Part shown: positions 16,803 through 60,610 of the stretch, in pieces
How the letters are laid out: each line of letters begins with the position of its first letter
Numbering within the stretch: position 1 is the first letter of the stretch
Origin: Aureliella helgolandensis
GTDB taxonomy: Bacteria > Planctomycetota > Planctomycetia > Pirellulales > Pirellulaceae
DNA: 64,000 nucleotides
Reading direction: 5' to 3'
Assembly: GCF_007752135.1 (NCBI RefSeq)
Contig: NZ_CP036298.1
Span: forward strand, 124,001-188,000
The notes under the pieces: model-generated
The model's database searches: none
Seen by the model: the letters and a program-made list of their open reading frames with translations, nothing else
What the model was told of the DNA's origin: nothing
Made by a program: the position numbers and the translations under genes

Positions 16803-16966
16803 CCGCCGCCTCCCCCTGCCCTGTGCTCGTGTTTAGCTCGGTGTGAACAGGGCTGGTTGGTTGTAGCTGCAGGCTGGGTTCGGGAGCGAGCTGCCTAGTG
16901 CATTGTCAAAGCTTAATTTTCGGGTTGCCCGGAAATTCGGGTTGCCCGGAAAAAGGTGTCCGACAC

Positions 16967-18494
16967 GAATGGCACTTAATCGGCGTAAGTCCTATGCCTC
17001 CCCGGGTTTGTATTCGCTTCTTGGCTTTTGCATCAGCTTGTATTTCTTCGGTCTTCGCTTGAGCACCCTGGGCTCGTAGCGGTCCGGTCGATTGCCAACT
17101 GCGTGTTGCAAGCAGCAGCGGTACAACACAGTGCATAATTCATCGGCGTTGCTGATTAGGCCTAGAACCGGAAGCATATCCGTCACCGTTGTCAGTGTTG
17201 ACTTGAAACTGATATGCCAAGGTTGAACGTCGCCTTCGACGGCCGCTTCAGACATCACCCCGCGAATCAAATTGTAAGCCAACATGTGCGTCCGAATTTC
17301 GTTCCGCACTCGATGCGGCTTTTTACAGCGCAAGTGTTCCATCTGCATGACCGTTTTCAAGCTCCGTAAATGAAGTTCTGCTTGCCACCTTCTACGGAAC
17401 AGGGCCGCGATGTCCTCCCTCGTGTACTCCGTATCGTCCGACAGCGATGTGTGAACGATAATCTCGCGAGTGCGAAATCCGTTGTTCTCAACTCGGATAC
17501 GGATCTCGCGAATGGTGATGAAGTCCGGGTACGTCTCGTACTCTTCAATGCTCATCCAGTCGGGACGAGCTGGCTTGTCGATTTGGATGGAGTGATCGTC
17601 TTTGCCGTAACGAATTCCAGTCCGAAAATCTGACTTGCGCAACTGGTGTTTGCGAACAACGACGTGTGCACCACGTTGAATCATCCTCGCCATCTCGAAC
17701 CAACCCGCATAGGCGCGATCAGCTAGGAAAACATCGGTTTCTTCGATGATTGCGTCGATCTGACGAAACAAACTTACTTCGTGAGTGAACTTACCTTTGT
17801 ATCGGCCCATCGCCATGTCGAGCACAACGCCAGTCGACAACGCGAACAGTACAACGACTCGCAAGATCGGAAATCCACAACCGGGTGCTTGACTACTAAG
17901 TTGCGGGTAGGCGGCTTGATTCTCCGACGTGTCTGCCATCGTGACGGTGGCACCATCGGCGGTGATCACGCGGTGCCCCAGCCATCGCCAATGGTCGGGA
18001 CTGCTGTCTTCAATCGCAAGTCCGCTGGCCGTCACAAGACGTTGCATGGATTGCTCGTCGATTTTGTCTCGAGCAATGCAGTAAGCACCGGTTTCGGCAG
18101 AGCAAGCAGTTTGGTTGTTGGCGACTCGATGGGTGATCAGCTTGGCGACCGCAGAGACGCAGCCGTGGTGGATGCTCATGACTTGCGAGAGGAAGACCCA
18201 CAGCGTGACCGATGTGTTGTAAACTCTGGCCGAATCGAGAATGGCACTTGCATTGCCAAAGACTGACGCGATAGTCTCTTTGGAGATCAAGGCGGCGAAG
18301 TAAAGATCGCCGTGTTGGCGCGCATGTTGGACTCGACAGCGGAACGAATCAAACGGATGATGGCACACGGGGGCTTCCTTGCTTGGTGTGTTCGGGAGGT
18401 AAGATTACCCAAACTCATCGCAAGTGAAGCCCCCTGCTGTCAATCGAACTTAACTCTAGAAGCACCAGTACCTTAGGCCGATTAAGTGCCATTC
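16967..18494 (-). mobile_element. IS4-family insertion sequence, copy 1
   Basis: 1528 bp with terminal inverted repeats GAATGGCACTTAATCGGC at the left end and its complement at the right end. It is flanked on both sides by the 11-bp direct repeat GTGTCCGACAC (16956-16966 and 18495-18505), within the 9-13 bp range known for IS4-family targets. It contains one transposase gene. It sits in the left stem of the palindromic miniature element. It appears identical to the copy at 36935-38462. Confidence 0.93.
16992..18368 (-). CDS. IS4-family DDE transposase, copy 1
   Basis: 458 residues; cuts and joins the IS ends. The DDE set is visible: D in ADGATVTMADTSEN, D in VFLADRAY, and the IS4 signature in FRRRWQAELHLRSLK, which fits (Y/F)-x2-R-x3-E-x6-K. 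The frame is full length and uninterrupted, so the element looks active. It starts 126 bases inside the right end and stops 25 bases from the left end. The long open frame on the opposite strand is a shadow. Confidence 0.95.
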   Translation of the reverse strand: MCHHPFDSFRCRVQHARQHGDLYFAALISKETIASVFGNASAILDSARVYNTSVTLWVFLSQVMSIHHGCVSAVAKLITHRVANNQTACSAETGAYCIARDKIDEQSMQRLVTASGLAIEDSSPDHWRWLGHRVITADGATVTMADTSENQAAYPQLSSQAPGCGFPILRVVVLFALSTGVVLDMAMGRYKGKFTHEVSLFRQIDAIIEETDVFLADRAYAGWFEMARMIQRGAHVVVRKHQLRKSDFRTGIRYGKDDHSIQIDKPARPDWMSIEEYETYPDFITIREIRIRVENNGFRTREIIVHTSLSDDTEYTREDIAALFRRRWQAELHLRSLKTVMQMEHLRCKKPHRVRNEIRTHMLAYNLIRGVMSEAAVEGDVQPWHISFKSTLTTVTDMLPVLGLISNADELCTVLYRCCLQHAVGNRPDRYEPRVLKRRPKKYKLMQKPRSEYKPGEA

Positions 18495-18607
18495 GTGTCC
18501 GACACCAAAAGCCGGAACGGCCCTTCGGGTGCTTTGCACTTTTGGGTGTCGGACACCTTTTTCCGAACGCTCGCTAAACCCGAATTCTTAGTCTTGACAA
18601 TGCACTA

Positions 18608-18910
18608 ACGAGACCGCAGCGCACTTGACTGCCGCGCATCCCCACCCCCTCTCTTCGGAGTTCCGGGGCGATGGGATGCCCGTTTGGATGTGGTCGGGGG
18701 ATGCGTACTGAAACGACTGGTGCTTGGGGGCAGCCTATTCGTCGAAGTGGTAATGTGTAAAGTCTGACGTGTTAGTGACGGATTGCACCGCTTGTGCAAG
18801 AATCTGACGCGGCGCCCCACGCGCGGGCCGGTGAGCTGACTGACGCTCTGAGCAGAATTTCCTGCAGGCTAGAGCCAGAGACGTGTTTGTTATGGAGCAG
18901 TGAGAAGGTT
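18608..18910. other. Intergenic region before the antiporter
   Basis: 303 bases between the miniature element and the antiporter start. No gene or clear promoter could be recognised; the antiporter promoter should lie here. Confidence 0.4.
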
Positions 18911-20338
18911 ATGGATCTCTATTCAATCGCGGCCATCATTGTGACACTGGCAGCGATGTTCGGTTATATCAATGTCAAGTTCTTGAAATTGCCGAATACG
19001 ATCGGCCTGATGGTCATCGCGATTCTGTTTACTTTCACACTTTTTGCCAGCACACTGTTTACCAACCAGCTCCTAGAGCGTGCGGAACATTTAATTGCGC
19101 AGATCGATTTCCATGATGTGCTGCTCGATGTGATGCTCGGTTTCCTGCTGTTTGCTGGAGCGCTGCACACCAATTTTTCACAACTCAAAGTCCATCGATG
19201 GCCGATCCTTGTCTTTTCAACTGTGGGGGTGATCGGTTCGTCATTCTTGATTGGTGGCCTAATTTACTTCGCATTTCCTTGGATTGGTCTGTCGGTTTCA
19301 TTCATCCACTGCCTGCTTTTCGGAGCCCTGATTTCGCCTACCGACCCGATTGCCGTGCTAGGCATTTTGAAGCAGGCGAAAGTTCCTAAGCAACTTGAAA
19401 CTAAAATCGTTGGCGAGTCGCTGTTTAACGATGGTGTGGGTGTGGTGGTGTTTATGACCGTCCTGCAGGCCGCCCACGGTCTCACAGGGGCTCCCACCAT
19501 GGAAGTTGCTTCGGACAGCCCCATGGTTGCAGTTAGTCAGTCGGAGGTCGTGCCAGAACCGCATTCGGTCGACTCTCCCTTGCCGGCAGCGACGGTAGCG
19601 GAGCTCACGGAAAATCACGCTGCGGATGAGCATGCAGCTGATACGCATGCAACAGGCTGGACCGGTGTCGTGAAGTTGTTCGTGGTGGAAGTCTTTGGCG
19701 GCATTATCTTGGGCCTGCTCCTGGGCTTGGCCACTTACAAGTTACTGAAGTCAATCGATGACTATGAAATCGAAATCTTGATCACACTGGCGTGTGTCAT
19801 GGGGGGCTATGCGCTGGCTAGCTACTTCCATTTTTCGGCTCCACTGGCCATCGTCGTGGCCGGTTTGTGTGTGGGCAACGATACGGTGCGTGGAACGGCC
19901 ATGTCGAAACAAACCGAAGAGTATGTCGACCGCTTCTGGGAGCTTGTGGACATGCTGATGAACGCCACCTTGTTCGTTTTAATCGGTTTGGAGCTGTTGG
20001 TCCTGACGCTAAATATTCAAGTCCTCTATGCCTCTTTGCTGGCGGTCGTAGTTGTTTTACTGTCTCGCTATCTTTCGCTCCTACTTCCCGTCCGGTTCTT
20101 TCGAAGAAAGCTCGACTTCGCGCCCCATACCACACTGTTAATGACCTGGGCTGGTTTGCGAGGAGGTATCTCCATCGCACTTGCGCTGAGTCTGCCCATA
20201 TCGATGAATCGTGAACTGTTTCTCGCGGTAACGTATGGAGTCGTTGTTTTTTCGATTATCGTGCAAGGACTCTCCGTCGGCTGGCTGGCGCGAAAGTTGA
20301 TCGGCCAACCCGCTACCGTCAGCCCCCCTGTGCTGTAG
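18911..20338 (+). CDS. CPA1-family Na+/H+ antiporter
   Basis: 475 residues, about 12 hydrophobic segments, an inner-membrane cation/proton exchanger. The transport core motifs PTDPIAVLGILK and GESLFNDGVGVVVF (with the ND pair) are those of CPA1 (NhaP/NHE-like) proteins. A hydrophilic, acidic and His-containing loop of about 55 residues (around EVVPEPHSVDSPLPAAT to EHAADTHATGW) splits the core and is not usual for the family. The ATG at 18911 follows GAGAAGG closely; the frame is open upstream to 18794 but that part is not antiporter-like. Role: pH and sodium homeostasis, fitting a marine lifestyle. Stands alone. Confidence 0.9.
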   Translation: MDLYSIAAIIVTLAAMFGYINVKFLKLPNTIGLMVIAILFTFTLFASTLFTNQLLERAEHLIAQIDFHDVLLDVMLGFLLFAGALHTNFSQLKVHRWPILVFSTVGVIGSSFLIGGLIYFAFPWIGLSVSFIHCLLFGALISPTDPIAVLGILKQAKVPKQLETKIVGESLFNDGVGVVVFMTVLQAAHGLTGAPTMEVASDSPMVAVSQSEVVPEPHSVDSPLPAATVAELTENHAADEHAADTHATGWTGVVKLFVVEVFGGIILGLLLGLATYKLLKSIDDYEIEILITLACVMGGYALASYFHFSAPLAIVVAGLCVGNDTVRGTAMSKQTEEYVDRFWELVDMLMNATLFVLIGLELLVLTLNIQVLYASLLAVVVVLLSRYLSLLLPVRFFRRKLDFAPHTTLLMTWAGLRGGISIALALSLPISMNRELFLAVTYGVVVFSIIVQGLSVGWLARKLIGQPATVSPPVL

Positions 20339-20843
20339 GCTTCACAACCTTACCGCGGCGCGCACGCAAGACAATGCAAGCTGGATAGCGCACGCCGGTG
20401 GCCCGAGGCCGTTTTTCAATGCGCATGAGATGCACCGCAGCTCATTGGCGTGTTGGATGAAGAGCGTTTTCAGTTTTACCCTGCAGGGGTCGCAGCCCCA
20501 ATCTCTCTCTGCGGCGCCCACGCATCCCTGCTCACGCAGCGGGGGCTCATTCAACCAGCCGCTAAGCGCAGGTTTCGTGTTCGAAGTCGTCGGTGGAAAG
20601 TGCATTACGAACTTGGGATCCCTCGCAATCGTTCGCATCAATTCAATTCTGATTTGTGCAATTCCTCTGAGCAATTCAGTTTGGTGTGTTTAGTGAGCTG
20701 TTTGGGTGATAGTCCGTATTTCATGAGGTCCCGGTTTCATGAGGACAAAGTGTCGCACTTCTCAAACGGCAATCTCATACGGCAAGGGGAGTTGCATGGC
20801 GCGCCTGCGGGACGCGCTGAATCGGGGGAAGTTTTGAATGCCG
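20339..20843. other. Intergenic region carrying one dispersed repeat unit
   Basis: About 500 bases with no credible gene. At 20465-20580 the sequence resembles the short repeats at 23.3-23.6, 41.9 and 46.0 kb: GTTTTCAGTTTTACC, then CCCTGCTCACGCAGCGGGGG (20526-20545), then GCCGCTAAGCG. Confidence 0.45.
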
Positions 20844-20894
20844 TTGACAACGCCACATCGCATCGCATAAAACCTGTACCAGTTATACAGGTTT
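20844..20894 (+). promoter_or_regulatory. Promoter and operator candidate of the sulfite reductase gene
   Basis: A perfect -35 box TTGACA (20844-20849) and ATAAAA (20867-20872) are separated by 17 bases. Overlapping the -10 and start region is AAACCTGTA (20870-20878), seven bases, then TACAGGTTT (20886-20894), a perfect 9-bp inverted repeat. The start codon is 41 bases downstream. The arrangement suggests a repressor that blocks RNA polymerase. Which regulator is unknown. Confidence 0.65.
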
Positions 20895-20934
20895 CGATGG
20901 CCTAGCGTTAACCCGCGTCGAAGGAAGCTCGCAC

Positions 20935-22719
20935 GTGTCCCAAGAAGAACCCCAAAAATCAAAAGTAGAAGTCATCAAGGAAGCCAGCGTTGGGCTTCGT
21001 GGCAGCATCGCGGCGGAGCTTGCCGACCACAGCACTGACCACGTCGAGGACGCGACGACCAAGCTGCTCAAATTCCATGGGACGTACCAGCAGGATGATC
21101 GGGATCTGCGGAAGGCGCGACGCAAGGAAAAGCTCGGGAAAGCGTTCTCGTTCATGGTTCGCAATCGCATTCCTGGGGGCAAGATGACTGCGGCCCAGTT
21201 TTTGGCGGAATTGGACATCGCGGACGAACTGGGTAACGGCACGATCCGCATCACTACACGACAGAGTATTCAACTTCACGGCGTCGTTAAAGACAACTTG
21301 TGGGGCGTGATTCATCGCATCAATGAAATCGACCTTTCCACACAATCGGCGTGTGGCGATGTGACGCGGAATGTATGTTGTTGTCCTGCGCCACTGCACC
21401 AGGATTCGCTGCGAACGGAGTTGCAAAAACTGACGGATGAGATCGCAGAATTTGTGCGGCCCAAGACGGGAGCCTACCATGAGATTTGGATCAAGGATCC
21501 CGATACTGGAGAGCGCGAACAAGTTGCGGGCCAGCCCGCAGTGTCCGAATTTGAACCGCTCTACGGCGAAGCCTACATGCCCCGCAAGTTCAAGATCGGT
21601 TTGGGGATGTGCCACGACAATTGCATTGACGTCTATGCTCACGACCTGGGGCTATTGGCGGTGACCGAGGGGGACACCATCCTGGGATTCAACGTGTTAG
21701 TGGGCGGAAGTATGGGGACGACGCCCAGTAAGAAGAATTGCTTTCCCGCTATTGGTAAGCGGATGGCGTTTGTGACTCGTGAAGAATTGTTTCCGCTCAT
21801 CACGGCAGTCATGTTGGTGCAACGCGATTTCGGCGATCGTAGCGATCGCAGTCAAGCCAGGATGAAGTATCTGATCCACAACTGGGGCTTGCCCAAATTT
21901 AAAGCCAAGGTGGAAGAGTATCTCACTCAAGCTGAGTCGATTTGCAGTGTCGCCGAGGGGACGGTGCGGCGGCCACTGCTTGATCCGCATCCGGCCGAAG
22001 TAACCACGCATCAAGATCATTTAGGCTGGCACGAACAGGGAGATGGGAAGTGGTTCCTGGGGCTACCCATTGAAAATGGTCGGGTGAAAGATGACGGATC
22101 ACTGCAGCTGAAAGCTGCGTTGCGGAAGCTGTTGCCCGAGCACGTGCCAACCGTGCGTTTGACCTTGCATCAAAATATCTTGCTGTGCGATGTGGAGGCG
22201 AGTCGCCGAGCAGATATCGAAAAGATTCTCTCAGACCATGGTGTCGTTACCGTGGAGCAGATCAGCACGCTGCGACGGCATGCGTTTGCCTGCCCAGCAC
22301 TGCCGACCTGTGGGTTGGCAGTCACGGAAAGCGAGCGCGTGATGCCGCTGGTGATTTCCGACCTGGAGGTGCTACTGGACGAATTGGGGTTGGCCGATGA
22401 GCCCTTTTCGTTGCACATGACCGGTTGCCCGAATGGTTGTGCCCGACCCTACAATTGCGACATTGGACTGGTTGGCAAGAGCATCGACGGAAAGTCTGGT
22501 GAGGGGAAATACACGGTATTCATCGGCGGTAACTTGATCGGTACGCGCATGAATGCGGTTTACAAAGACTTGGTCTTGCGTAGCGACATCCCCGCGACGC
22601 TGCGTCCGCTGTTGATCTGTTTCAAAGAGAATCGTCAAGCGGGGGAAACGTTGGGCGATTTCTTCCACCGCTGGGGAATGGACTCGCTCAAGGAGTTAGA
22701 CGGTACCGCCGAAGTGTAG
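20935..22719 (+). CDS. Assimilatory sulfite reductase (sirohaem, 4Fe-4S)
   Basis: 594 residues of the nitrite/sulfite reductase family, with two ferredoxin-like half-domains and two sirohaem/4Fe-4S domains. The cluster ligands are C453-x5-C459 (CPALPTC) and C498-x3-C502 (CPNGC), the latter in MTGCPNGCARPYNCDIGLVG. This form is closer to sulfite reductase than to nitrite reductase, but the two are hard to separate by eye. The reaction is the six-electron reduction of sulfite to sulfide for cysteine synthesis. The GTG start has AAGGA about 10 bases upstream. No flavoprotein partner lies beside it, so ferredoxin may be the donor. Confidence 0.85.
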   Translation: MSQEEPQKSKVEVIKEASVGLRGSIAAELADHSTDHVEDATTKLLKFHGTYQQDDRDLRKARRKEKLGKAFSFMVRNRIPGGKMTAAQFLAELDIADELGNGTIRITTRQSIQLHGVVKDNLWGVIHRINEIDLSTQSACGDVTRNVCCCPAPLHQDSLRTELQKLTDEIAEFVRPKTGAYHEIWIKDPDTGEREQVAGQPAVSEFEPLYGEAYMPRKFKIGLGMCHDNCIDVYAHDLGLLAVTEGDTILGFNVLVGGSMGTTPSKKNCFPAIGKRMAFVTREELFPLITAVMLVQRDFGDRSDRSQARMKYLIHNWGLPKFKAKVEEYLTQAESICSVAEGTVRRPLLDPHPAEVTTHQDHLGWHEQGDGKWFLGLPIENGRVKDDGSLQLKAALRKLLPEHVPTVRLTLHQNILLCDVEASRRADIEKILSDHGVVTVEQISTLRRHAFACPALPTCGLAVTESERVMPLVISDLEVLLDELGLADEPFSLHMTGCPNGCARPYNCDIGLVGKSIDGKSGEGKYTVFIGGNLIGTRMNAVYKDLVLRSDIPATLRPLLICFKENRQAGETLGDFFHRWGMDSLKELDGTAEV

Positions 22720-22790
22720 CCGGGCGCCATACCGCATCTATCGAATGGTCCGCTAAGTTTTCAGCGACTGGCTTGCAGCAAGGGAGAGGA

Positions 22791-23228
22791 ATGTTGAATA
22801 TCGAGCGACAGCACGCACGCACGCTGTATGGGATCGAAACGCGTATTTCCGATGATCCGGCAGCGCAGATCGGTGCGGTTTGGCAGAAGTTTCTCAGTGA
22901 GAATCTAGCGGATGATATTCCAGAGAGACTCGATGATCTGTTGATCGCAATGTACTTCAATTACGAAGGCGAACCCTCAGATCCCTACCATTTCTTCTTG
23001 GGTTGCGAAGTTGGTGATGTGGCTTGCGTCCAGGATGGTTTTGCCTTGCGAACGATACCTGTTGGCAACTATGCTGAGTTTCTCGCCGTAGGCAAAATGC
23101 CAGCAGCTTTGGTTGAGACGTGGCAACAAATCTGGAAGGCAGACCTCAAACGTAACTTCGCAGCAGACTTCGAAATCCACGATCCAGCAACACCAGATCA
23201 AGTCGCCATTTACGTCGGTGTTATCTGA
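22791..23228 (+). CDS. GyrI-like / effector-binding domain protein
   Basis: 145 residues resembling the stand-alone GyrI-like small-molecule-binding domain (SOUL/AraC effector-binding fold): ARTLYGIETRISDDP at the start, a central FLGCEVGD, and a C-terminal FEIHDPATPDQVAIYVGV. Such proteins bind small ligands or act as cyclopropanoid hydrolases; which applies is not clear. An AGGGAGAGGA directly precedes the ATG at 22791, which decides the start. It follows the sulfite reductase by 71 bases on the same strand, so may be co-transcribed, without an obvious functional link. Cytoplasmic. Confidence 0.7.
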   Translation: MLNIERQHARTLYGIETRISDDPAAQIGAVWQKFLSENLADDIPERLDDLLIAMYFNYEGEPSDPYHFFLGCEVGDVACVQDGFALRTIPVGNYAEFLAVGKMPAALVETWQQIWKADLKRNFAADFEIHDPATPDQVAIYVGVI

Positions 23229-23274
23229 AGCGTCTGCTAGTGCAATTGTCAGACGGCCGATTGATTAAACGCGA

Positions 23275-23600
23275 TTTTGGTTTTGCTGCAGAGGTAGTGC
23301 CCGTGACTGCCCTGTAGCGGCGATCGCCTTTTCTTGCTTACCGGGATGTTGATTTAATCGCAATTTGAATTTTAATGCGGAGGTAGCATCCTTAATTGCC
23401 TTGTAGCCGAGGTTATCTTTCCTTGCTCACGCGGCGGGTTACTATTTCAACAGCCCGTTACGCGGCGGGTTGCGATTTCGATCTTCTTTGTTCGCGGCCT
23501 GTTGAGTGAGGCTAGTTTTTAGTTTTGCCGCAGAGGTAGTGCTCGTGATTGTCCTGTAGCGGCGATCACCTTTCCTTGCTTACGCGGCGGGTTGCGATTT
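23275..23600. repeat. Cluster of imperfect ~80-bp direct repeats
   Basis: Three imperfect units lie at 23281-23345, 23370-23450 and 23521-23600, with a half unit at 23459-23480. Shared blocks are a start near TTTTGCNGCAGAGGTAGTG, a middle TGTAGCGGCGAT, and an end CCTTGCTTACGCGGCGGGTT then TTTC. Related sequences occur at 20.5, 42.0 and 46.0 kb. No coding capacity is apparent; the region lies between convergent genes. Confidence 0.7.
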
Positions 23601-23667
23601 CTGTCAGTCAGCAGTCAGCAGTCTGGGGACTCGAGGCGTGTGGCATCCCTGGCTTCAGTCCCTTGGC

Positions 23668-24087
23668 CTATTGCACGAGCTGGAGTTGGCGAGCCGTTGG
23701 TGCGATGTCCGCGAGGGTCACGCCATCCAGGTATTCACGTTGGACGCGCTCGGCTTCCGCAAGAACCCCTTTGAGTTTGCAAAAACCATGGATGGTACAA
23801 GAATCGTCGGCGCCGACGCAAGCCAATAGGTGTAGGTTGGATTCCATGCAGGCAATCACCGCTCCAATCGAAATGTCGTGGGGTGGCTGGGCTAATTCGA
23901 TGCCCCCACCGACGCCGCGAGTGCTGCGGATGTAGCCCTCTCGCGCCAGCAAGTTGACGACTTTGCCAACGTGGTTGACCGAGATGCCGAATAGCTGTGC
24001 AATGTCGGCGACTTTCGAGCGTGATGATTGCGTCGCTAAAAACATGAGTGTTCGCAACGCATAATCGGTTTGGGTGGTCAGCTTCAT
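23668..24087 (-). CDS. Rrf2-family transcriptional regulator, NsrR-like
   Basis: 139 residues. The winged helix starts MKLTTQTDYALRTLMFLA, the hallmark of the Rrf2 family, with wing GVGGGIEL. Three cysteines in the right place, C90-x6-C97-x5-C103, match the Fe-S ligands of NsrR/IscR-type proteins, so it should hold an Fe-S cluster and respond to nitric oxide, oxidants or iron-sulfur status. NsrR is the closest by Cys spacing. It stands alone; a candidate promoter lies 67 bases upstream. Targets unknown. Whether it binds the 9-bp palindrome at the sulfite reductase promoter is an open possibility. Confidence 0.85.
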   Translation of the reverse strand: MKLTTQTDYALRTLMFLATQSSRSKVADIAQLFGISVNHVGKVVNLLAREGYIRSTRGVGGGIELAQPPHDISIGAVIACMESNLHLLACVGADDSCTIHGFCKLKGVLAEAERVQREYLDGVTLADIAPTARQLQLVQ

Positions 24088-24153
24088 GATGTTTGAGAAT
24101 GCAGACCTTGGAAAGATTGCAGCACAGAGAGTGGTGGGGACGCAGCTTGCACA

Positions 24154-24182
24154 AGCCTAGGCTCACTGAAATCAACGGTCAA
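24154..24182 (-). promoter_or_regulatory. Promoter candidate of the Rrf2-family gene
   Basis: On the minus strand TTGACC (24182-24177) and TAGGCT (24159-24154) are 17 bases apart, upstream of the regulator's ATG at 24087. The -10 box is a partial match. The rest of 24183-24413 holds no recognised gene. Confidence 0.4.
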
Positions 24183-24413
24183 TGAGAAATTGGAAAATAG
24201 GGTTTGCCGGTTTGCAAATGCCGCCCATGTCGGGTGGGGAATTCCCAGCTCACGAAATCGAGAAACCGTCTTTCTCCTACCCTGTCGCAGAGCATTCCGC
24301 AGGCGAAGCAAACAGCTGGGGGCGTCGTCGTCCTATCTATTGCTCTCGTCTTCGGTCTGCGTGGGACGGGCAATGCCGTACGGATCGTCCTCCGATCGAC
24401 TCTGCCTCGATGC

Positions 24414-26828: not shown

Positions 26829-26909
26829 CGACTGTTCCCGTACGATAAAGGGTGGTGGATACTGTCGAGTGTGGCCGGATCGTCTGCGAGGGTGAGCTAT
26901 CGTCAACTA

Positions 26910-26933
26910 TACGCTCCCTTAGCGTACTATACT
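26910..26933 (+). promoter_or_regulatory. Promoter candidate of the moxR operon with inverted repeat
   Basis: TACGCT-CCCTT-AGCGTA (26910-26926) is a 6-bp inverted repeat immediately before a TATACT -10-like box (26928-26933). No good -35 is visible, which may mean activation at the palindrome. It lies about 100 bases before the moxR GTG and also close to the divergent DUF4159 start. Confidence 0.4.
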
Positions 26934-27031
26934 TAGCTGAGCTCGGTAAATATGCAGCTCGCTGCGTCACCGAGATCGGAACTCCCTTAAATTTAGCCTG
27001 CAGACTTCACCGTTTTTACAGGAAAGCATCT

Positions 27032-28123: not shown

Positions 28124-28138
28124 TTGGGGATCTAGCAC

Positions 28139-29035: not shown

Positions 29036-29128
29036 CACGCACACTGTTGACCCGAGCGAACGACTGCCCAACTGAATCCATCACTTCCTCTCATTCTCTC
29101 AACTCCATCAGATTGATCTAGTTCCACG

Positions 29129-31519: not shown

Positions 31520-31524
31520 GGAGC

Positions 31525-33828
31525 ATGATAAATCCATTTTTCTCGCAACGGTTGCTGAGTCAGATCAGTGTGGAACCGCTGTTTGGTTGGCTGGCTTGGC
31601 TGCCGCTGGCTCTCGTGATGTTGGCCAGTCTGTGGTTGACACTCACGTCTACCGGAGTCTCGCGATCGGGGCGTTGGGTCCTTGTCCTACTGCGCTCGGC
31701 CGCCATGTGCGTACTGTTGCTAGGGTGGCTGCGCCCGGGAGTGATTACCACCACCGAACGCGAAAGCGCTGGAGCCATTGCAGTGCTGATGGATCGCTCC
31801 GAAAGTATGGTGCTGCCGGGCGGAGCGAGTGGTAATAGCCGCTGGCAGGAGCAGCAAGGGGTGTGGGACGCCATCGTTGCGGCCACCTCATTGAAAATTG
31901 GCGAATCACAACTCGTTCCCTATTTCTACGATCAGGAGTTGTCGCGGGCGAGCACGGAGGATCTACCCGCGCTGTCGGCCACGTATGGGAAATTGCCGAG
32001 AGGGAAACTGACCGACCTCGGCCAGGCGCTTTCCGAATTGGGGCGGCAACAAGTAGAGCCGCCTCTGCGAGCAGTGATCCTCATGGGGGATGCTACGCAG
32101 ACGCAGCTGCCTCCCCGCGTCGATGCCACAGTCGTGGCGCGCCAGATGGCGCAGCTAGACCAGCCCATCCTGGTGGTCGGATTGGGGGTGCGCGGCGAGA
32201 AAAGCCAGCTCCGAGATGTGGCGATTGAAGGATTACCGGAAAGTTTCTCCGCCTTTGTGAAAAAGGAATTGAATGTCCCCCTAGTGATCCGCGCACTCGG
32301 AATGCAGAACCAACCGATCAACCTGCAGCTGAAGCTACGCTCGAGCGGCAAGCCGGATCAGATTCTTGCCTCGCGAACAGTGTTGGCCACGGGGCCTGCC
32401 GAACAGCTGCCGCTAGAGTTCAAGATTGTAGTGCCGGATGCTGGGGAGTATTTGCTGGAAGCTACCGCCACGGTGGATACGCAAGAGCAAGTCGAATCGA
32501 ATAACAAGGCGATCAGCTTCGTCAGTGTGCGTGAGGGAGGGGTGAATATCCTCTATCTCGAGGGGCAATTGCGAGCAGAGCAAGCGTTCCTCAAACGCTC
32601 CTTAGACGAGTCGTTGGATTTTCAGATTAGTCCCTATTACTTGCCGGAGAAGGATCGTCAGAAGTGGCCCGTTGATTTGAGTCGGACGATTGATTTCGAT
32701 CGATTCGACGCGATTATTATCGGCGATTTGGATGCCGGCGCGCTATCACCTCAGACGCAACAACGCCTTCGTCGCCGAGTGGAGATGGGAGCCGGTTTGC
32801 TGTTGTTAGGTGGTTACCATACCTATTCCCTAGGGGGCTATGCACGCAGCGAATTGGCGTCGCTGTTTCCCGTTGAGCTCAACTTGCGCTCCCAGGCTTG
32901 GGGTGCTCCCGTGGACGAGACGCAGCATATTTTGGGAGACGTAAAGCTCAGACCGACTCGGCCGAATCCCATCACCAGTTTGGCTGGCGATCCTCTCGAC
33001 AACGCGCGGCAATGGGAGTCCCTAAAGCCGTTGCAGGGGATGAACCGACTGGGTCGAGTGGTGGCCAAACCGGGCGTTCAAGTGTTGTTGGAGGATGCCG
33101 AGGGGGAGCCCGCACTGGTGACCGGAGAGGCAGGGCGAGGCCGAGTGCTAGCGTTCGCCGGTGATACGACTTGGCGCTGGTGGCTCGGAGGGCAGAAGAA
33201 GGTGCATCAGCAGTTCTGGCGGCAAGCCATGTTGTGGTTGATCCGACGTGATACGCTCAACGAAGGTTTTCGGCTCGACCTGCAGCGCCGGCGTCTAGCC
33301 CTGGGGGACACTCCTCCGTTGAGCGTCGAGTGGTTTGGTGGGAGCGAGAACAAAGCGATGCCAAGTGAAGTGAAAATTGAACTGTCTTGTGAGGGACGGT
33401 GGCTGCAGAACTTGGTGTCAACCAAGCAATCCGAGTCAATGCTACAAGCCACGCTGGCGGGGTTGGAGGCACCGGGGCTGTACCGGGCCGCGCTTACCGC
33501 CACGGGCGCGGATGGGACACCCTACGAAGCCGACATCGCCTTTGTGGTGCGGGATGAATCGGTCGAACTGGAGAATCCTTCCGCCGACTGGCAGATGATG
33601 GCCAATATCGTCTCTGCCAATGCGGCCGCGGAAGGGCAGTTAGTGCTGCCAGAGGAGATCGGCCAAGCCCTGGGGTGGCTGCGTGAGCGACAGGATGCCA
33701 CCAAGGTAACGACCATTGAAAAACGTCGATTGGGCGATGCAGCTTGGGATGCTTGGCTGTATTTGGTGTTGTTCTGCGCTTTGATGAGTGTCGAGTGGGG
33801 GCTCCGCAAGGCATGGCAGCTCCCTTAG
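31525..33828 (+). CDS. VWA / glutamine-amidotransferase-like membrane protein
   Basis: 767 residues. Two N-terminal membrane segments (about 15-35 and 45-70) are followed by a VWA domain with an intact metal motif D90-R-S92-E-S94. A class-I-glutamine-amidotransferase-like domain (GLLLLGGYHTYSLGGYARSE) lies around residues 425-440. A C-terminal membrane segment (DAWLYLVLFCALMSVEWGLRK) closes it. It starts five bases after the previous gene, so they are translated together. Planctomycete loci with MoxR, DUF58 and BatA commonly end with such a protein. The amidotransferase domain lacks a clear catalytic Cys in view, so it is probably structural. Confidence 0.85.
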   Translation: MINPFFSQRLLSQISVEPLFGWLAWLPLALVMLASLWLTLTSTGVSRSGRWVLVLLRSAAMCVLLLGWLRPGVITTTERESAGAIAVLMDRSESMVLPGGASGNSRWQEQQGVWDAIVAATSLKIGESQLVPYFYDQELSRASTEDLPALSATYGKLPRGKLTDLGQALSELGRQQVEPPLRAVILMGDATQTQLPPRVDATVVARQMAQLDQPILVVGLGVRGEKSQLRDVAIEGLPESFSAFVKKELNVPLVIRALGMQNQPINLQLKLRSSGKPDQILASRTVLATGPAEQLPLEFKIVVPDAGEYLLEATATVDTQEQVESNNKAISFVSVREGGVNILYLEGQLRAEQAFLKRSLDESLDFQISPYYLPEKDRQKWPVDLSRTIDFDRFDAIIIGDLDAGALSPQTQQRLRRRVEMGAGLLLLGGYHTYSLGGYARSELASLFPVELNLRSQAWGAPVDETQHILGDVKLRPTRPNPITSLAGDPLDNARQWESLKPLQGMNRLGRVVAKPGVQVLLEDAEGEPALVTGEAGRGRVLAFAGDTTWRWWLGGQKKVHQQFWRQAMLWLIRRDTLNEGFRLDLQRRRLALGDTPPLSVEWFGGSENKAMPSEVKIELSCEGRWLQNLVSTKQSESMLQATLAGLEAPGLYRAALTATGADGTPYEADIAFVVRDESVELENPSADWQMMANIVSANAAAEGQLVLPEEIGQALGWLRERQDATKVTTIEKRRLGDAAWDAWLYLVLFCALMSVEWGLRKAWQLP

Positions 33829-33856
33829 ACCTTTAGTCAGTTTCAGCCCTTTCTGG

Positions 33857-33862
33857 TATGAT
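33857..33862 (+). promoter_or_regulatory. Extended -10 promoter candidate of fabH
   Basis: TGGTATGAT contains an extended -10 (TATGAT, 33857-33862, with an upstream TGG). The -35 region (TAGTCA, 33834-33839) is weak. It would give a transcript starting near 33870, before either of the two candidate fabH start codons at 33896 and 34004. Confidence 0.4.
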
Positions 33863-33895
33863 AAGCAGCTTGCATTTTCGGACTCGGTTTTACGC

Positions 33896-34990
33896 ATGAT
33901 GGTAGCGGCGGATTCAGCATTGTCTTCAGAAACACAGCCTTCAGAATCAAACAAATCAGCCAGGGTCTCTGGTGAGCAGCTTTCCAGCTCTGGGCGAAGT
34001 CGCATGGGGAGTTTGAGGGGCATTGAGATCGCTTCTACGGGAAGCTATGTGCCCGAAACGGTGGTGGCCAATGAGGATTTGGCCGCGCTGGGGTGTGACA
34101 GTAACTGGATTGTGCAGCGCACCGGGATTTTGGAGCGACGGCGGGCGGCCCCCGAGCAGGCGACCAGCGATTTGGCGCTGGCCGCAGCTCGAAAATGTCT
34201 CGAACGCGCGAATTTGGCTCCCTCGGAAGTCGATTTGATCTTGGTTGCTACCATTACACCCGATCAAGCATCGCCCTCCACGGCCTGCCACCTGCAGCGA
34301 CAGCTCGGTTGCATCGCTCCTGCTATGGATCTGAACGCCGCCTGCGCCGGGTTCATGTACGGACTCGTGACGGGCTCGCAGTTCGTTGCAACGGGAGCCG
34401 CGCGGAATGTGCTCGTGGTGGGAGCCGAAGTGATGAGCCGCACCATCAATCCGCAGGATGTAAAGACCTACCCCTTGTTTGGTGATGGCGCCGGAGCAGT
34501 CCTGCTTCGCCCGACACAGGACTCGTCGAAAGGTCTGCTGAGCTACACGTTGGGAGCGGAGGGATGCGGTGGGCAAATGCTCTGCATTCCGAGCGGTGGC
34601 AGTCGTCTGCCGTTGACGGCACAGTCCATTGCGGAAGGGGCTCACTTCCTGCACATGGAGGGCCGAGCGGTCTTTAAGTGGGCCGTGCGAGTGGTAGCAG
34701 ACAGTACGCGAGACTGCTTGGCGCACAGCCAAGTCGCTGTCAAAGACCTCGACATGATGATTTTGCATCAAGCGAATACCCGGATCATCGATGCGGCGGT
34801 CTCCGACTTCAATATCGACCCCGACAAGGTTTATGTTAATCTCGATCGATTCGGGAATACGAGTGCGGCCAGCATCCCACTAGCGCTGGATGAAGTCATG
34901 TCGGCGGGACGCATTGGCCCCGGTAGCAAACTGCTCCTTTGTGGTTTCGGTTCTGGACTGGCTTGGGGCACGGCGGTCATGCAATTGTGA
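33896..34990 (+). CDS. fabH: 3-oxoacyl-[acyl-carrier-protein] synthase III
   Basis: 364 residues from the ATG at 33896. The catalytic triad is present: Cys in DLNAACAGFMYGL, His in ILHQANTRIID and Asn in RFGNTSAASIPLA. The enzyme condenses acetyl-CoA (or a branched starter) with malonyl-ACP to start fatty acid synthesis. The first 36 residues are Ser-rich and not FabH-like; the family body starts at MGSLRGIEIASTGSYVPE, so the ATG at 34004 (328 residues) is an equally good start. The frame is open to 33788, overlapping the previous gene. No fatty-acid gene cluster surrounds it. Cytoplasmic. Confidence 0.92.
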   Translation: MMVAADSALSSETQPSESNKSARVSGEQLSSSGRSRMGSLRGIEIASTGSYVPETVVANEDLAALGCDSNWIVQRTGILERRRAAPEQATSDLALAAARKCLERANLAPSEVDLILVATITPDQASPSTACHLQRQLGCIAPAMDLNAACAGFMYGLVTGSQFVATGAARNVLVVGAEVMSRTINPQDVKTYPLFGDGAGAVLLRPTQDSSKGLLSYTLGAEGCGGQMLCIPSGGSRLPLTAQSIAEGAHFLHMEGRAVFKWAVRVVADSTRDCLAHSQVAVKDLDMMILHQANTRIIDAAVSDFNIDPDKVYVNLDRFGNTSAASIPLALDEVMSAGRIGPGSKLLLCGFGSGLAWGTAVMQL

Positions 34991-35092
34991 ATCGATCCCT
35001 GCTTTGGGGGAATGGGCGTGTCCCTCCTGGCTTGCTAGCCTGGATGTCTCTTGCTGAACTTAACTTTCGAGAATGATTAAAAGAGAATTGCC

Positions 35093-35941
35093 GTGAGTGA
35101 CGAAACGCAGTGGGTGATCAATACAACCGATGCGACCTTTGAGCAGGATGTGCTACTGGCGTCGCAGCAGGGGTTAGTGGTCGTTGATTTTTGGGCCGAG
35201 TGGTGCGCCCCGTGTCGTACCTTGGGGCCGATTCTGGAAGGGCTAGCAGAGGATTACCAGGGCGGCTTCTTGCTCGTCAAGGCAGACACGGAGACCAACC
35301 AGGCGGCGGCGGGCGAGTTTTCGGTTTCGGGCATTCCCGCCGTGTTTGCAGTTCTCGATGGTGAGGTTGTCGACTCCTTTCAAGGGGCTATGCCAGAGCC
35401 TCAGGTTCGGCAGTGGATTAACTCCCTGTTGCGTCAGCGGGAGCTGAAGGCGGCCAAGGAAATGTTGGAGACCTCCCCAGACGAGGCTGAGGTTATCCTC
35501 CGCAGCCAGTGGCTAGAGACCCCCGATGATGCGGCCGTGGCGGCGCCGTTGGCCGAGCTGCTGTTGAGCCAGGGGCGTACCGATGAATGTGTTGAGATCA
35601 TCGAGCAGCTGGAGCAACGCGGGTTCTTGGAGCCCGAAATGGAACGCGTGAAAGCAGCTGTCGAGTTGGGATCGAAGGCGGATGTCGATGTCGAGGCAGC
35701 CAGAGCTGCAGCGGCGGCAGCCCCCAACGATTTCGAGCTTCAATTCACGCTGGCCGAAGCCCTTGCCGGAAGTGAGCAGTATGAGGCCTCTTTCGAGATT
35801 TGCTTAGATCTCGTCAGTCGCGATCGGCACAAAACGGGCGAGAAGGCGCGTGCGCTAATGGTCGATGTCTTCCGTGTCCTGCCGGAGGGATCCGAATTGA
35901 CAAGCGACTACCGCCGCAAGTTGTCGATGCTGTTGTACTGA
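35093..35941 (+). CDS. Thioredoxin-TPR co-chaperone (CnoX/YbbN-like)
   Basis: 282 residues. The N-terminal thioredoxin domain has an intact W37-C38-A-P-C41 redox motif and the cis-proline GIPAVF; residues about 120-280 are TPR-like helices. This layout matches CnoX (YbbN), which protects proteins during oxidative stress and hands them to chaperones. Here, unlike E. coli CnoX, both cysteines are present, so disulfide reductase activity is likely. The GTG start follows an AAGAGA. The next gene begins directly after its stop, which suggests co-transcription. Cytoplasmic. Confidence 0.9.
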   Translation: MSDETQWVINTTDATFEQDVLLASQQGLVVVDFWAEWCAPCRTLGPILEGLAEDYQGGFLLVKADTETNQAAAGEFSVSGIPAVFAVLDGEVVDSFQGAMPEPQVRQWINSLLRQRELKAAKEMLETSPDEAEVILRSQWLETPDDAAVAAPLAELLLSQGRTDECVEIIEQLEQRGFLEPEMERVKAAVELGSKADVDVEAARAAAAAAPNDFELQFTLAEALAGSEQYEASFEICLDLVSRDRHKTGEKARALMVDVFRVLPEGSELTSDYRRKLSMLLY

Positions 35942-36850
35942 TTGCCATCTGTGAGAACTCAAGACCTATTGGGAGTGTTTGGGCTGCCCTTGCTGTCAGC
36001 GATGTTGTTCGCGGTTGCAGCCATTGGATTGAAACTCACTTCCAAATATTGCATTGATATTTGGCGGACCTGTTTTGTTTCGAACATCACTACGGCGATA
36101 CTCTTTCAACCGTTGTGGTGGCTGTCAAGCGATTGGCCCGTGTGGCATTTGTGGTGGCAGCCAGCAATTGTCGCAGGTGTCTACATTCTTGGGCAAGTGT
36201 TGACGCTGGTGTCGTTAACGCGCGGCGAGATCTCGGTCTCCGCTCCCGTGCTGGGATTGAAGATCATCTTTGTGCCGATCTTCTTGTGGACGTTGAGCGT
36301 GAGTACGCTGCCGGCCACTATTTGGGCTGCCTGCTCTCTCGCAACCTTGGCCGTGGTCCTATTGAACTACACGACGGAGAGTGGGAATCGCAAGAACATT
36401 GCATTCTCGGCTACAACTGCTGCGTTGGGTGCAGCCAGCTTTGCACTGTTCGACGTGTGCGTGCAGAGTTGGAGTCCCCATTGGGCCGGTGGTGGATTCC
36501 TGCCCGCCATATTCGTGTTTGCTACGTTATTCACACTAGCCCTAATTCCCATGTTCGATGCTAGGCTGCGCGAGATTCCGGCTGCGGCCTGGCCGCCACT
36601 GTGGGTCGGCTCGATCTTCATCGCTATTCAGGCTTTGGCGATTGTCGTCAGCGTCGCCTTCTGGCAGCAAGCCGCTTCCACGAATGTCGTGTACAGTACT
36701 CGAGGATTGTGGAGTCTCGGCTTAATCGCCTTGGTCGGCCAGCGGTTTGGAATCCCTGACAAGGGGCTCAGCCGACGGGTGTTTGCGGTCCGGTTGAGTG
36801 GTGCACTGCTGCTGATGGTTGCCATTGGGATGCTCGTCAGTGATGGCTAG
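35942..36850 (+). CDS. EamA/DMT-family membrane transporter
   Basis: 302 residues with about 10 hydrophobic segments, two halves of the EamA (drug/metabolite transporter) type. No substrate is indicated. The TTG start (35942) abuts the stop of the preceding gene; a GTG at 35951 is an alternative. No Shine-Dalgarno is obvious, so translation may be coupled. The copy-2 miniature element begins 24 bases after its stop. Confidence 0.8.
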   Translation: MPSVRTQDLLGVFGLPLLSAMLFAVAAIGLKLTSKYCIDIWRTCFVSNITTAILFQPLWWLSSDWPVWHLWWQPAIVAGVYILGQVLTLVSLTRGEISVSAPVLGLKIIFVPIFLWTLSVSTLPATIWAACSLATLAVVLLNYTTESGNRKNIAFSATTAALGAASFALFDVCVQSWSPHWAGGGFLPAIFVFATLFTLALIPMFDARLREIPAAAWPPLWVGSIFIAIQALAIVVSVAFWQQAASTNVVYSTRGLWSLGLIALVGQRFGIPDKGLSRRVFAVRLSGALLLMVAIGMLVSDG

Positions 36851-36934
36851 GCGCTGGCCAGCTCCCACAAGCTACTGCGTTGTCAACACTAAGAATTAGG
36901 GTTTAGCGAGCGTTCGGAAAAAGGTGTCCGACAC

Positions 36935-38462
36935 GAATGGCACTTAATCGGCGTAAGTCCTATGCCTCCCCGGGTTTGTATTCGCTTCTTGGCTTTTGCA
37001 TCAGCTTGTATTTCTTCGGTCTTCGCTTGAGCACCCTGGGCTCGTAGCGGTCCGGTCGATTGCCAACTGCGTGTTGCAAGCAGCAGCGGTACAACACAGT
37101 GCATAATTCATCGGCGTTGCTGATTAGGCCTAGAACCGGAAGCATATCCGTCACCGTTGTCAGTGTTGACTTGAAACTGATATGCCAAGGTTGAACGTCG
37201 CCTTCGACGGCCGCTTCAGACATCACCCCGCGAATCAAATTGTAAGCCAACATGTGCGTCCGAATTTCGTTCCGCACTCGATGCGGCTTTTTACAGCGCA
37301 AGTGTTCCATCTGCATGACCGTTTTCAAGCTCCGTAAATGAAGTTCTGCTTGCCACCTTCTACGGAACAGGGCCGCGATGTCCTCCCTCGTGTACTCCGT
37401 ATCGTCCGACAGCGATGTGTGAACGATAATCTCGCGAGTGCGAAATCCGTTGTTCTCAACTCGGATACGGATCTCGCGAATGGTGATGAAGTCCGGGTAC
37501 GTCTCGTACTCTTCAATGCTCATCCAGTCGGGACGAGCTGGCTTGTCGATTTGGATGGAGTGATCGTCTTTGCCGTAACGAATTCCAGTCCGAAAATCTG
37601 ACTTGCGCAACTGGTGTTTGCGAACAACGACGTGTGCACCACGTTGAATCATCCTCGCCATCTCGAACCAACCCGCATAGGCGCGATCAGCTAGGAAAAC
37701 ATCGGTTTCTTCGATGATTGCGTCGATCTGACGAAACAAACTTACTTCGTGAGTGAACTTACCTTTGTATCGGCCCATCGCCATGTCGAGCACAACGCCA
37801 GTCGACAACGCGAACAGTACAACGACTCGCAAGATCGGAAATCCACAACCGGGTGCTTGACTACTAAGTTGCGGGTAGGCGGCTTGATTCTCCGACGTGT
37901 CTGCCATCGTGACGGTGGCACCATCGGCGGTGATCACGCGGTGCCCCAGCCATCGCCAATGGTCGGGACTGCTGTCTTCAATCGCAAGTCCGCTGGCCGT
38001 CACAAGACGTTGCATGGATTGCTCGTCGATTTTGTCTCGAGCAATGCAGTAAGCACCGGTTTCGGCAGAGCAAGCAGTTTGGTTGTTGGCGACTCGATGG
38101 GTGATCAGCTTGGCGACCGCAGAGACGCAGCCGTGGTGGATGCTCATGACTTGCGAGAGGAAGACCCACAGCGTGACCGATGTGTTGTAAACTCTGGCCG
38201 AATCGAGAATGGCACTTGCATTGCCAAAGACTGACGCGATAGTCTCTTTGGAGATCAAGGCGGCGAAGTAAAGATCGCCGTGTTGGCGCGCATGTTGGAC
38301 TCGACAGCGGAACGAATCAAACGGATGATGGCACACGGGGGCTTCCTTGCTTGGTGTGTTCGGGAGGTAAGATTACCCAAACTCATCGCAAGTGAAGCCC
38401 CCTGCTGTCAATCGAACTTAACTCTAGAAGCACCAGTACCTTAGGCCGATTAAGTGCCATTC
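36935..38462 (-). mobile_element. IS4-family insertion sequence, copy 2
   Basis: 1528 bp, the same length and, line by line, the same sequence as copy 1, which implies very recent transposition or gene conversion. It is flanked by GTGTCCGACAC on both sides (36924-36934 and 38463-38473). It lies in the same strand orientation as copy 1, although its host miniature element is in the opposite orientation. Confidence 0.93.
36960..38336 (-). CDS. IS4-family DDE transposase, copy 2
   Basis: 458 residues, identical in amino-acid sequence to the transposase at 16992-18368, with the same intact DDE residues and IS4 signature. The frame is uninterrupted. The two identical genes can act on either element in trans. 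Confidence 0.95.
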   Translation of the reverse strand: MCHHPFDSFRCRVQHARQHGDLYFAALISKETIASVFGNASAILDSARVYNTSVTLWVFLSQVMSIHHGCVSAVAKLITHRVANNQTACSAETGAYCIARDKIDEQSMQRLVTASGLAIEDSSPDHWRWLGHRVITADGATVTMADTSENQAAYPQLSSQAPGCGFPILRVVVLFALSTGVVLDMAMGRYKGKFTHEVSLFRQIDAIIEETDVFLADRAYAGWFEMARMIQRGAHVVVRKHQLRKSDFRTGIRYGKDDHSIQIDKPARPDWMSIEEYETYPDFITIREIRIRVENNGFRTREIIVHTSLSDDTEYTREDIAALFRRRWQAELHLRSLKTVMQMEHLRCKKPHRVRNEIRTHMLAYNLIRGVMSEAAVEGDVQPWHISFKSTLTTVTDMLPVLGLISNADELCTVLYRCCLQHAVGNRPDRYEPRVLKRRPKKYKLMQKPRSEYKPGEA

Positions 38463-38562
38463 GTGTCCGACACCAAAATTGCAAAGCACCCGCAGGGCCG
38501 TTCCGGCTTTTGGTGTCGGACACCTTTTTCCGGGCAACCCGAAATTAAGCTTTGACAATGCA

Positions 38563-39276
38563 CTACGCCAGTGGCCATTGTTTTCCCAGGCTCTCTTGCT
38601 GAATCTTGGTTAACTGCTTGATTCCGGCTTTGGCGAGCTTGATTAAGGCAGCGAGCTCGTCGTCGTCAAACGTTGCTTCCTCCCCCGTGCCTTGAATCTC
38701 TACGAATTGACCTTTGCCCGTCATGACAACGTTCATGTCGACGGCGGCGGCAAAGTCTTTCTCGTAGTCGAGATCTAGGGTGGGTTTTCCATTGACAATT
38801 CCCACGCTGATGGCGGCAATGCTATCCCGCAGTGGATGCTCCGCGGGAGGCGTTTTGCGGAACTCTGGGTAGAGTGCATCGGCCAGTGCTAGAAAGCCTC
38901 CGGTGATGCTGGCGGTCCGCGTCCCACCATCGGCTTGCAGAACATCGCAGTCCACCGTAACCATTCGCTCTCCGAGTCGCTCGAGGTCGACCACAGCCCG
39001 CAAGCTACGACCGATTAAACGTTGGATCTCTGTGGTGCGTCCATCGACCTTGCCATCGCGATCTCGACGCTTACGACGATTGGTGCTGTGGGGCAACATG
39101 TTGTATTCGGCAGTAACCCAGCCTTTACCAGACCCCGCCAGCCAGGGTGGCACGCCATCTTCGATGCTGGCAGTGCAGAGCACAATCGTGTCGCCACTTT
39201 GGTAGAGCACCGACCCGGGGCTGCTACGAGTGTACTTGCGTTTAACCTTGACGGGACGAATCGATTGAGTGGACAT
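38563..39276 (-). CDS. rph: Ribonuclease PH
   Basis: 237 residues, the usual length. Phosphorolytic 3'-5' exoribonuclease that trims tRNA 3' ends. The start RPVKVKRKYTRSSPGSVLYQSGDT and the core GWVTAEYNMLPHST, RRKRRDRDGKVDGRTTEIQRLIGRSLRA (in part: GRTTEIQRLIGRSLRA) and DCDVLQADGGTRTASITG are typical. The stop codon is formed at the edge of the inserted miniature element, so the last residues may differ from relatives. The gene is divergent from the SDR gene. Cytoplasmic. Confidence 0.95.
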   Translation of the reverse strand: MSTQSIRPVKVKRKYTRSSPGSVLYQSGDTIVLCTASIEDGVPPWLAGSGKGWVTAEYNMLPHSTNRRKRRDRDGKVDGRTTEIQRLIGRSLRAVVDLERLGERMVTVDCDVLQADGGTRTASITGGFLALADALYPEFRKTPPAEHPLRDSIAAISVGIVNGKPTLDLDYEKDFAAAVDMNVVMTGKGQFVEIQGTGEEATFDDDELAALIKLAKAGIKQLTKIQQESLGKQWPLA

Positions 39277-60260: not shown

Positions 60261-60370
60261 CAGCTGGCGTCAGCGAAGTTGAAGTCAAGTGGTTTTCAGA
60301 GTTTGTTTGCGTCTTTACAGTTTTCTGGGGCTGAGCCTCAGAGGCTGTGCTGATGTGTTGTTTGGTCCTA

Positions 60371-60522: not shown

Positions 60523-60610
60523 TAGATGGAGAGCGTCGTTGACGGTCTTGATAGCATCCAAATTATGCTCAAAGACGATGGCGCTATGGGCAGCGGCAAC
60601 TATCCGAGTC

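Follow-up and report, generated by a model that had tools for sequence, protein, structure and literature searches.

An IS4-family element of Aureliella helgolandensis inserted at an 11-bp palindrome, the probable core of RAYT-end and REPIN-like repeats

Insertion sequences (ISs) that enter repetitive extragenic palindromic (REP) sequences have been reported from five IS families, IS4 included (PMC1525189). The closest described system is ISRm22 of Sinorhizobium meliloti, an IS4-family element with all its copies in REP palindromes (nine on the chromosome in the text of that paper, 10 of 10 in its Table 2), inserted at the axis of symmetry, three of them with imperfect duplications that were attributed to recombination (PMC1525189). 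Here we describe an IS4-family element of 1528 bp that is present twice in a 64,000-bp stretch of the planctomycete Aureliella helgolandensis (positions 124001 to 188000 of a single-contig 8.44-Mb genome; hereafter the window) and 12 times genome-wide, and that lies at an 11-bp palindrome carried by a miniature inverted-repeat transposable element (MITE). It differs from ISRm22, which has been placed in subgroup IS4Sa (PMC2266710), in its duplications (11 bp as against 6 bp), its host phylum and its palindrome. An earlier note on this DNA had likened the element to REP-targeting ISs but set it apart from them as IS4-like; the family assignment stands, whereas the contrast falls, since ISRm22 was already known as an IS4 element that targets REPs (PMC1525189).

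Other ISs that insert into REP palindromes have transposases of other families: IS1397, ISKpn1 and ISPsy8 belong to the IS3 family and IS621, ISPpu9, ISPpu10 and ISPa11 to the IS110 family, with duplications of 3 bp for ISPsy8, 2 bp for ISPpu9 and ISPpu10 and none for ISPa11 (PMC1525189). IS231A and other target-selective IS4-family elements share with ours a DDE transposase, duplications of about 10 bp and a target preference, and "spectacular apparent insertion specificity" is stated for some elements of the IS4 subgroup; the portions of the source available to us do not describe the end repeats of REP-associated tyrosine transposase (RAYT) elements as a target (PMC2266710). RAYT elements, the related TIRYT elements (tyrosine transposases associated with terminal inverted repeats) and REPINs (REP doublets forming hairpins) combine Y1 transposase genes with inverted or palindromic flanking repeats that also form dispersed families (PMC3733652, PMC6006769, PMC2817692). 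The difference is that they are the target here, and that the repeats we read have no GTAG head; only some of them match the published terminal inverted repeat motif GGGGWSAS (GGGGTCAG does, GGTGTCGG does not).

Judging from the sequences compared below, we are fairly confident that the IS4-family transposase recognises a two-fold symmetric 11-bp site, that this target is the core of RAYT-end and REPIN-like repeats, amplified by the MITE, and that some relatives of the IS do likewise. The transposase itself would read base sequence and symmetry in double-stranded DNA, recognise G/GTGTCSGACAC/C (slashes bound the 11-bp site) and, by cut-and-paste transposition as its family suggests, insert with an 11-bp stagger that duplicates the site. 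The site would form the core of the repeats that end RAYT-like elements and make up REPIN-like doublets. In the window's genome the doublet is also carried by an amplified MITE, the source of most of about 70 sites, so that insertions collect in MITEs. In other planctomycetes the corresponding 11-bp core of RAYT end repeats (AAAG-[11]-CTTT) receives insertions of some related IS lineages. The benefit to the IS could be a supply of many sites outside genes.

The element and its insertion sites in the genome

The two IS copies in the window (16967-18494 and 36935-38462, both with the transposase gene on the minus strand) show no differences across all 1528 bp, and the earlier note was right that they share one target duplication: GTGTCCGACAC stands on all four flanks, at 16956-16966 and 18495-18505 for copy 1 and at 36924-36934 and 38463-38473 for copy 2. 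The note had also placed both copies in TA-flanked palindromic hosts of opposite orientation and pointed to an unoccupied copy of the host, and direct reading of the sequence bears this out. Host element 1 (16896-18607, minus strand), a TA-ended MITE whose interior is REPIN-like, is split by copy 1 and keeps a second, unoccupied arm palindrome at 18546-18556 (GTGTCGGACAC). Host element 2 (36873-38565, plus strand) also has TA at both ends, its left end being mutated (TACTGCGTTGTC), and keeps its second arm palindrome unoccupied at 38513-38523 (GTGTCGGACAC); given the opposite orientation of the hosts, different arms have been split. The unoccupied MITE, bounded here at 60369-60524 (plus strand), has a free target palindrome in its first arm (60420-60430) and another in its second (60470-60480). 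With at most one mismatch allowed, GTGTCSGACAC is matched nine times in the window (eight exactly) against 1.13 expected, and none of 100 shuffles had as many.

We tabulated the insertion sites of all genome copies, as the note had proposed (below, L-numbers are individual loci, G000 is the window's genome and other G-numbers are other genomes searched). The exact 11-bp palindrome abuts 11 of the 12 copies on at least one side and L007 sits at a one-base variant, so that copies in unrelated sequence, the outcome that the note had named as refuting it, were not seen among the 12. Nine copies have an exact 11-bp duplication on both sides, which is GTGTCCGACAC in five (L001-L004 and L011) and GTGTCGGACAC in four (L005, L008, L009 and L012). 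The flanks of L010 are GTGTCGGACAC on the left and GTGTCCGACAC on the right (10 of 11 positions match, the centre base being different), those of L006 are ATGTCGGACAC and GTGTCCGACAC (9 of 11), and of the two flanks of L007 the left is GTGTCCGACAT and the right unrelated DNA. Position, register and duplication of the insertions are thus read directly from the copies, each of which lies at the same point of a repeated palindrome, as in type 1 of the REP-targeting ISs of PMC1525189.

The 13-mer GGTGTCSGACACC occurs free 59 times in the window's genome, compared to once for the reversed control, and zero to four times in each of the other 146 genomes searched. By coordinate and context (read by hand), 49 of the 59 are in MITE arms and 10 are solo palindromes or belong to a short one-palindrome variant. 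The half-site CTGACACCT, which comes close to what relatives prefer, has 34 occurrences in the genome, but not one of the 12 copies uses it. In general, DDE transposases seldom choose their targets so strictly. When the insertion sites are rejoined, 10 of the 12 are not crossed by any frame of more than 161 aa.

Mutation alone is a disfavoured cause of the mismatched duplications. The right flank of L006 (CTTTTTGGCG) resembles a solo RAYT-type repeat, which makes recombination between IS copies the likelier origin of its flanks. L010 (IS at 6763490-6765017 of G000:C1) is flanked by an exact 61-bp direct repeat (1440-1500 and 3029-3089 of the locus) instead of 11 bp, and this repeat is the whole arm-loop-arm module. 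A clear exchange is seen in another genome, G033, where the reciprocal flanks of L067 and L068 point to an inversion of about 90 kb between two IS copies.

The order of events can be judged from eight occupied loci with both MITE halves. Pairwise divergence per site is 5.3% among their MITEs (5 of 155 positions in the closest pair) and 0.03% among their IS copies, and by hand reading both arms are used and both IS orientations relative to the MITE are present. Going by these differences the MITE spread first and the IS inserted later, repeatedly and separately, in agreement with the independent events suggested in the earlier note. Alternatively, the IS and the MITE could have moved together as a composite, with the target inherited and not chosen, and 11 of the 12 IS copies do lie in the same MITE family, with L011 perhaps in a decayed member. 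We rejected this, and give it hardly any credence, on account of the divergences just cited and the occurrence of both arms and both orientations.

At L011 the palindrome is not part of a full two-armed MITE, although a MITE-like end remains in the left flank. If L011 is taken as a solo site, occupancy is 11 of 60 MITE arms and 1 of 11 solo sites (Fisher p 0.68); if it is taken as a decayed MITE, the figures become 12 of 61 and 0 of 10 (p 0.19). As neither difference is significant, use of solo sites is not proved from the window's genome alone, and the MITE may matter there in other ways than as a carrier of the 11-bp site.

The IS4 assignment rests on the definition given in PMC2266710. The transposase is a single open reading frame (ORF) of 458 aa from GTG without a frameshift (16992-18368, minus strand, in copy 1; 36960-38336 by offset in copy 2), as in the IS4 family, and scores 187.6 bits against NCBIfam transpos_IS4_1 (cut-off 115), with Pfam DDE_Tnp_1 also matched. 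Its D138, D217 and E331 have 78 and 113 residues between them, within D(60-110)D(100-150)E, and in an alignment of 51 representative transposases, ours included, they are found in 51, 50 (with one gap) and 51 rows. F324-R327-E331-K338 has the exact spacing of the Y(2)R(3)E(6)K signature with F in place of Y; across the 51 rows Y (40) or F (11) stands at position 324, R and E are constant and K is present in 50. The length and the 11-bp duplication fall within the ranges of subgroup IS4 (1400-1650 bp and 10-13 bp), and the ends (GAATGGCACTTAATCGGC) fit its signature -AATR--------WTW---- partially, with AATR present and TCG at the WTW positions. Few positions vary among the 12 copies, small deletions in L012 among them.

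The host MITE and its RAYT-like relatives

About 35 MITE loci were counted by hand in the window's genome, 11 of them occupied by the IS. The MITE ends are terminal inverted repeats with TA at both ends (TAGTGCATTGTC...GACAATGCACTA), which may be a target duplication or a fixed part of the end, and similar ends are found around other interiors. A genome-wide search by the 14-bp end for an autonomous partner gave 27 matches, among which no longer element was recognised; all were at known MITE loci except one (1359310), 160 bp away. Inside the unoccupied MITE, the interval 60411-60489 reads AAAAAG-GTGTCCGACAC ... loop GCAAAGCACCCGAAGGGCCGTTCCGG ... GTGTCGGACAC-CTTTTT. This doublet is REPIN-like in having inverted arms 50 bp apart, in being dispersed and in sharing its loop core with other genera, its mobilisation by a RAYT being putative.

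Some match to the element was found in 19 of 147 genomes, the window's own included (at most five candidates per genome were scored), and we examined 20 matching places outside the window's genome for the doublet. The loop core is present with zero to four mismatches in 14 (L358-L360, L363, L364, L366-L373 and L377) and with six to seven in three (L361, L362 and L365), and is absent from three (L374-L376) that matched through the outer MITE end, L374 having both outer ends around another interior and L375 and L376 one such end. The doublets elsewhere carry differing arms, for example AAAGGGGTCAGGAGT or AAAGGGGTCAGACCC. As the loop core occurs with other arms and the MITE ends around other interiors, the element in the window is best read as a nest of MITE, REPIN-like doublet and IS.

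Some side observations concern these modules. A doublet family with the near-constant loop GCAAAGCACCCGAAGGGCCGTTCCGG and varying arms is found across genera of this order. At MITE loci near 503, 2999 and 3005 kb of G000:C1 the doublet inside points the other way with respect to the outer MITE arms, as though the module could turn over between its inverted arms. At L101 (G000:C1:5901000-5906500) part of a gene, presumably for glucosamine-6-phosphate deaminase, is duplicated, each copy being followed by two direct palindromes 60 bp apart into which the frames run.

The unoccupied MITE folds into a long hairpin (-50.9 kcal/mol as DNA, z -10.6), which raises the question of whether the IS recognises a folded form that the MITE or doublet takes up, as a hairpin or cruciform, instead of the base sequence of the 11-bp site. 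Such a form would be very stable in single strands, each arm is itself palindromic, ISRm22 and ISPsy8 too insert at the axis of a palindrome (PMC1525189), and with L011 as a decayed MITE none of the 10 solo palindromes is occupied. However, RAYT end repeats that are imperfect palindromes are entered in the same register, L006 has on its right what resembles a solo RAYT-type repeat, and relatives of the IS in G033 use non-palindromic sites, several with a common half-site. We therefore consider recognition of a folded form unlikely.

The arm palindrome also stands 27 bases from the 3' end of a Y1_Tnp match (G000:C1:5957267-5957974; Pfam PF01797, 49.4 bits against a cut-off of 23), in a gene that appears from its sequence to be a RAYT-like tyrosine transposase gene. 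The likeness to REP-targeting ISs drawn in the earlier note is apt, as a REPIN-like doublet has the palindrome for its arms and this gene lies next to a copy of it. The RAYT-like protein has matches in 85 of the 147 genomes, its own included, where there are three with the query itself. The nearest relative in our searches (G402, 72% identity) has GGTGTCGGACACC upstream and a degenerate copy downstream. At 54 RAYT loci, the flanks of which were compared with each other for an inverted repeat of 19 bases, hand reading found AAAG-[11]-CTTT or a near variant at 31, with cores that include GTGTCAGGAGT, GGGTCAGGCCT and GGGACGGGGGT; 18 gave no repeat (the window genome's own gene included, and several cut by contig ends) and five look like chance.

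Targets of related elements and their relation to RAYT loci

The IS protein has matches in 69 of the 147 genomes and in 137 of 396 in a wider sample, its own included in both (mostly at most four candidates per genome were scored in the latter). We examined the majority of the listed complete copies of these relatives, together with many partial copies. Both IS ends, sought with GAATGGCAC as the key, were found in 83 rows, of which 60 have a duplication matching in at least nine of 11 positions, 48 of them exactly (L216 repeats L074), and 23 do not (L217 repeats L046).

Several relatives fit the RAYT-type pattern. The one with 84% identity (G361) is flanked by AAAAG-GGGTCAGGAGC and, at its opposite end, by GGGTCAGGCCT-CTTTG. 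Of the two copies of a relative with 71% identity (G025), one lies in AAAAAG-GGGTCAGGCCT-CTTTTT, some 30 bp downstream of a RAYT gene; the flanks of the other (L058) do not match each other, and one of them is close to this sequence. A third, with 64% identity (L099), has GTTCCTGACAC-CTTTTT on its single readable side. The relatives' targets also share the symmetry: 54 distinct targets have on average 2.74 of five inner pairs symmetric against 1.27 in neighbouring DNA of the same loci, and 3.17 of six outer pairs against 1.53, with none of 2000 such controls as high in either case. In addition, the likeness between targets and RAYT repeats sums to 180, compared to at most 117 in 300 letter-shuffled target sets. 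A pattern scan of named genomes matched 27 stretches, of which three loci were confirmed (two partial).

The genomic neighbourhood gives a further line of evidence. Among 142 IS regions of relatives, complete and partial copies together, 14 lie no more than 700 bp from a RAYT ORF or fragment, where 0.27 would be expected with uniform placement (for genomes that lacked a RAYT count we assumed 19, the largest seen, and for those without a size entry 6.5 Mb). Left out of this count as distant were G020 (L088-L095 and L240) and G070 (L096), with 27-29% identity and 41% for one G020 fragment; L099 and L100 were also omitted, their genomes being already counted. In seven of the regions (L059, L073, L075, L086, L087, L215 and L330) the IS lies exactly in a RAYT end repeat; L059 and L215 adjoin apparently full-length RAYT genes, L073, L075, L087 and L330 adjoin fragments, and at L086 only the end of the gene is visible where the region ends. 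Among the remaining seven, the nesting at L321 and L333 may be the reverse, and in the rest insertion in the adjacent RAYT's own repeat is putative. Within a single genome, G041, three of four copies of this clade are near a RAYT, as against none of the seven listed copies of another IS group.

This neighbourhood could also be explained by tethering, in which RAYT protein bound to end repeats recruits the IS4 transposase, so that the IS follows the RAYT and not the DNA sequence. IS regions adjoin RAYT genes or fragments about 50 times above uniform placement, and the relatives in G033 and G009, where no RAYT was matched, have mostly other targets. On the other hand, the nucleotide register is exact, the window's genome has only the three RAYT matches with the query itself and yet its insertions are in MITE arms elsewhere, and the G033 targets keep a half-site, and in one case a whole GGGTCAGGCCT core, with no RAYT detected. 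We find tethering in this form very improbable.

Recognition of the 11-bp sequence itself also has to be weighed against several observations that count against it or limit its reach. Long frames cross two of the 12 rejoined sites (480 aa at L006 and 364 aa at L011), so that not all are clearly outside genes. The palindrome flanks the RAYT-like gene of the window's genome on one side only, and the NCBIfam RAYT model scores the protein at 37.1, below its cut-off of 80. A relative with 77% identity (L100) has CTATCTGTCCC on its readable side, one with 72% (G028) sits in GGTACTGTTCC, and one with 65% (G033) has eight different targets among nine copies with intact duplications, several of them with a common GTGTCAGA-like half-site; in these three the fit to a RAYT-type repeat is absent or partial only. 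The strict targeting suggested in the earlier note, which holds for the 12 copies found in the window's genome, is thus not common to all relatives. One of the G033 targets is nevertheless GGGTCAGGCCT, the RAYT core of other species, and as G033 has no RAYT match this speaks for a preference for the sequence. By the motif that we used, 13 of the 51 representative transposases, ours included, have a RAYT-type target; on the tree they lie in several branches, and one branch of 21 has none. Other IS branches use other, often symmetric, sites. The expectation of 0.27 rests on uniform placement, which is too kind a null given that mobile elements cluster. Finally, targets match RAYT repeats of the same genome better than those of other genomes only modestly (p 0.006 in 22 genomes, p 0.036 without the window's genome), in a comparison that used a hand-read list omitting the RAYT next to the IS of G005.

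Two groups of targets stand apart. CTCCG-GTGTCGGCCAC-CGGAG is common to L076 (G068), L327 (G361) and L305 (G387), which suggests another palindromic repeat used by related ISs. In G009, which has no RAYT match, all four copies (L079-L082) are at GTGGGTGGCAC, one with a single changed base on one side, and three have longer flanking sequence in common; they may target another repeat.

Implications of the target

Literature searches on planctomycete RAYTs and REPINs, on ISs and palindromes, on IS4 and REPs and on MITEs gave no report of this element by title or abstract, and a search with the palindrome sequence gave no paper on the subject as judged by title. Within the literature searched, three things are new: the host, the target and the association that ties a clade of IS4 elements to RAYT-like element ends. 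A wider interpretation, which we put forward only tentatively and regard as somewhat doubtful, is that RAYT elements are the speciality of an IS4 clade in Planctomycetota, whose transposases track the RAYT end repeats and REPIN-like doublets as these change between species, so that one family of transposons lives off the ends of another, possibly with direct help from the RAYT protein.

The relatives that are 64-84% identical and have partly different sites are natural variants with which the residues of the transposase that read the target could be mapped. If the link to RAYT ends is true, it would show concretely how one mobile element can exploit another, and it may help to explain where the specificity of REP-targeting ISs comes from.

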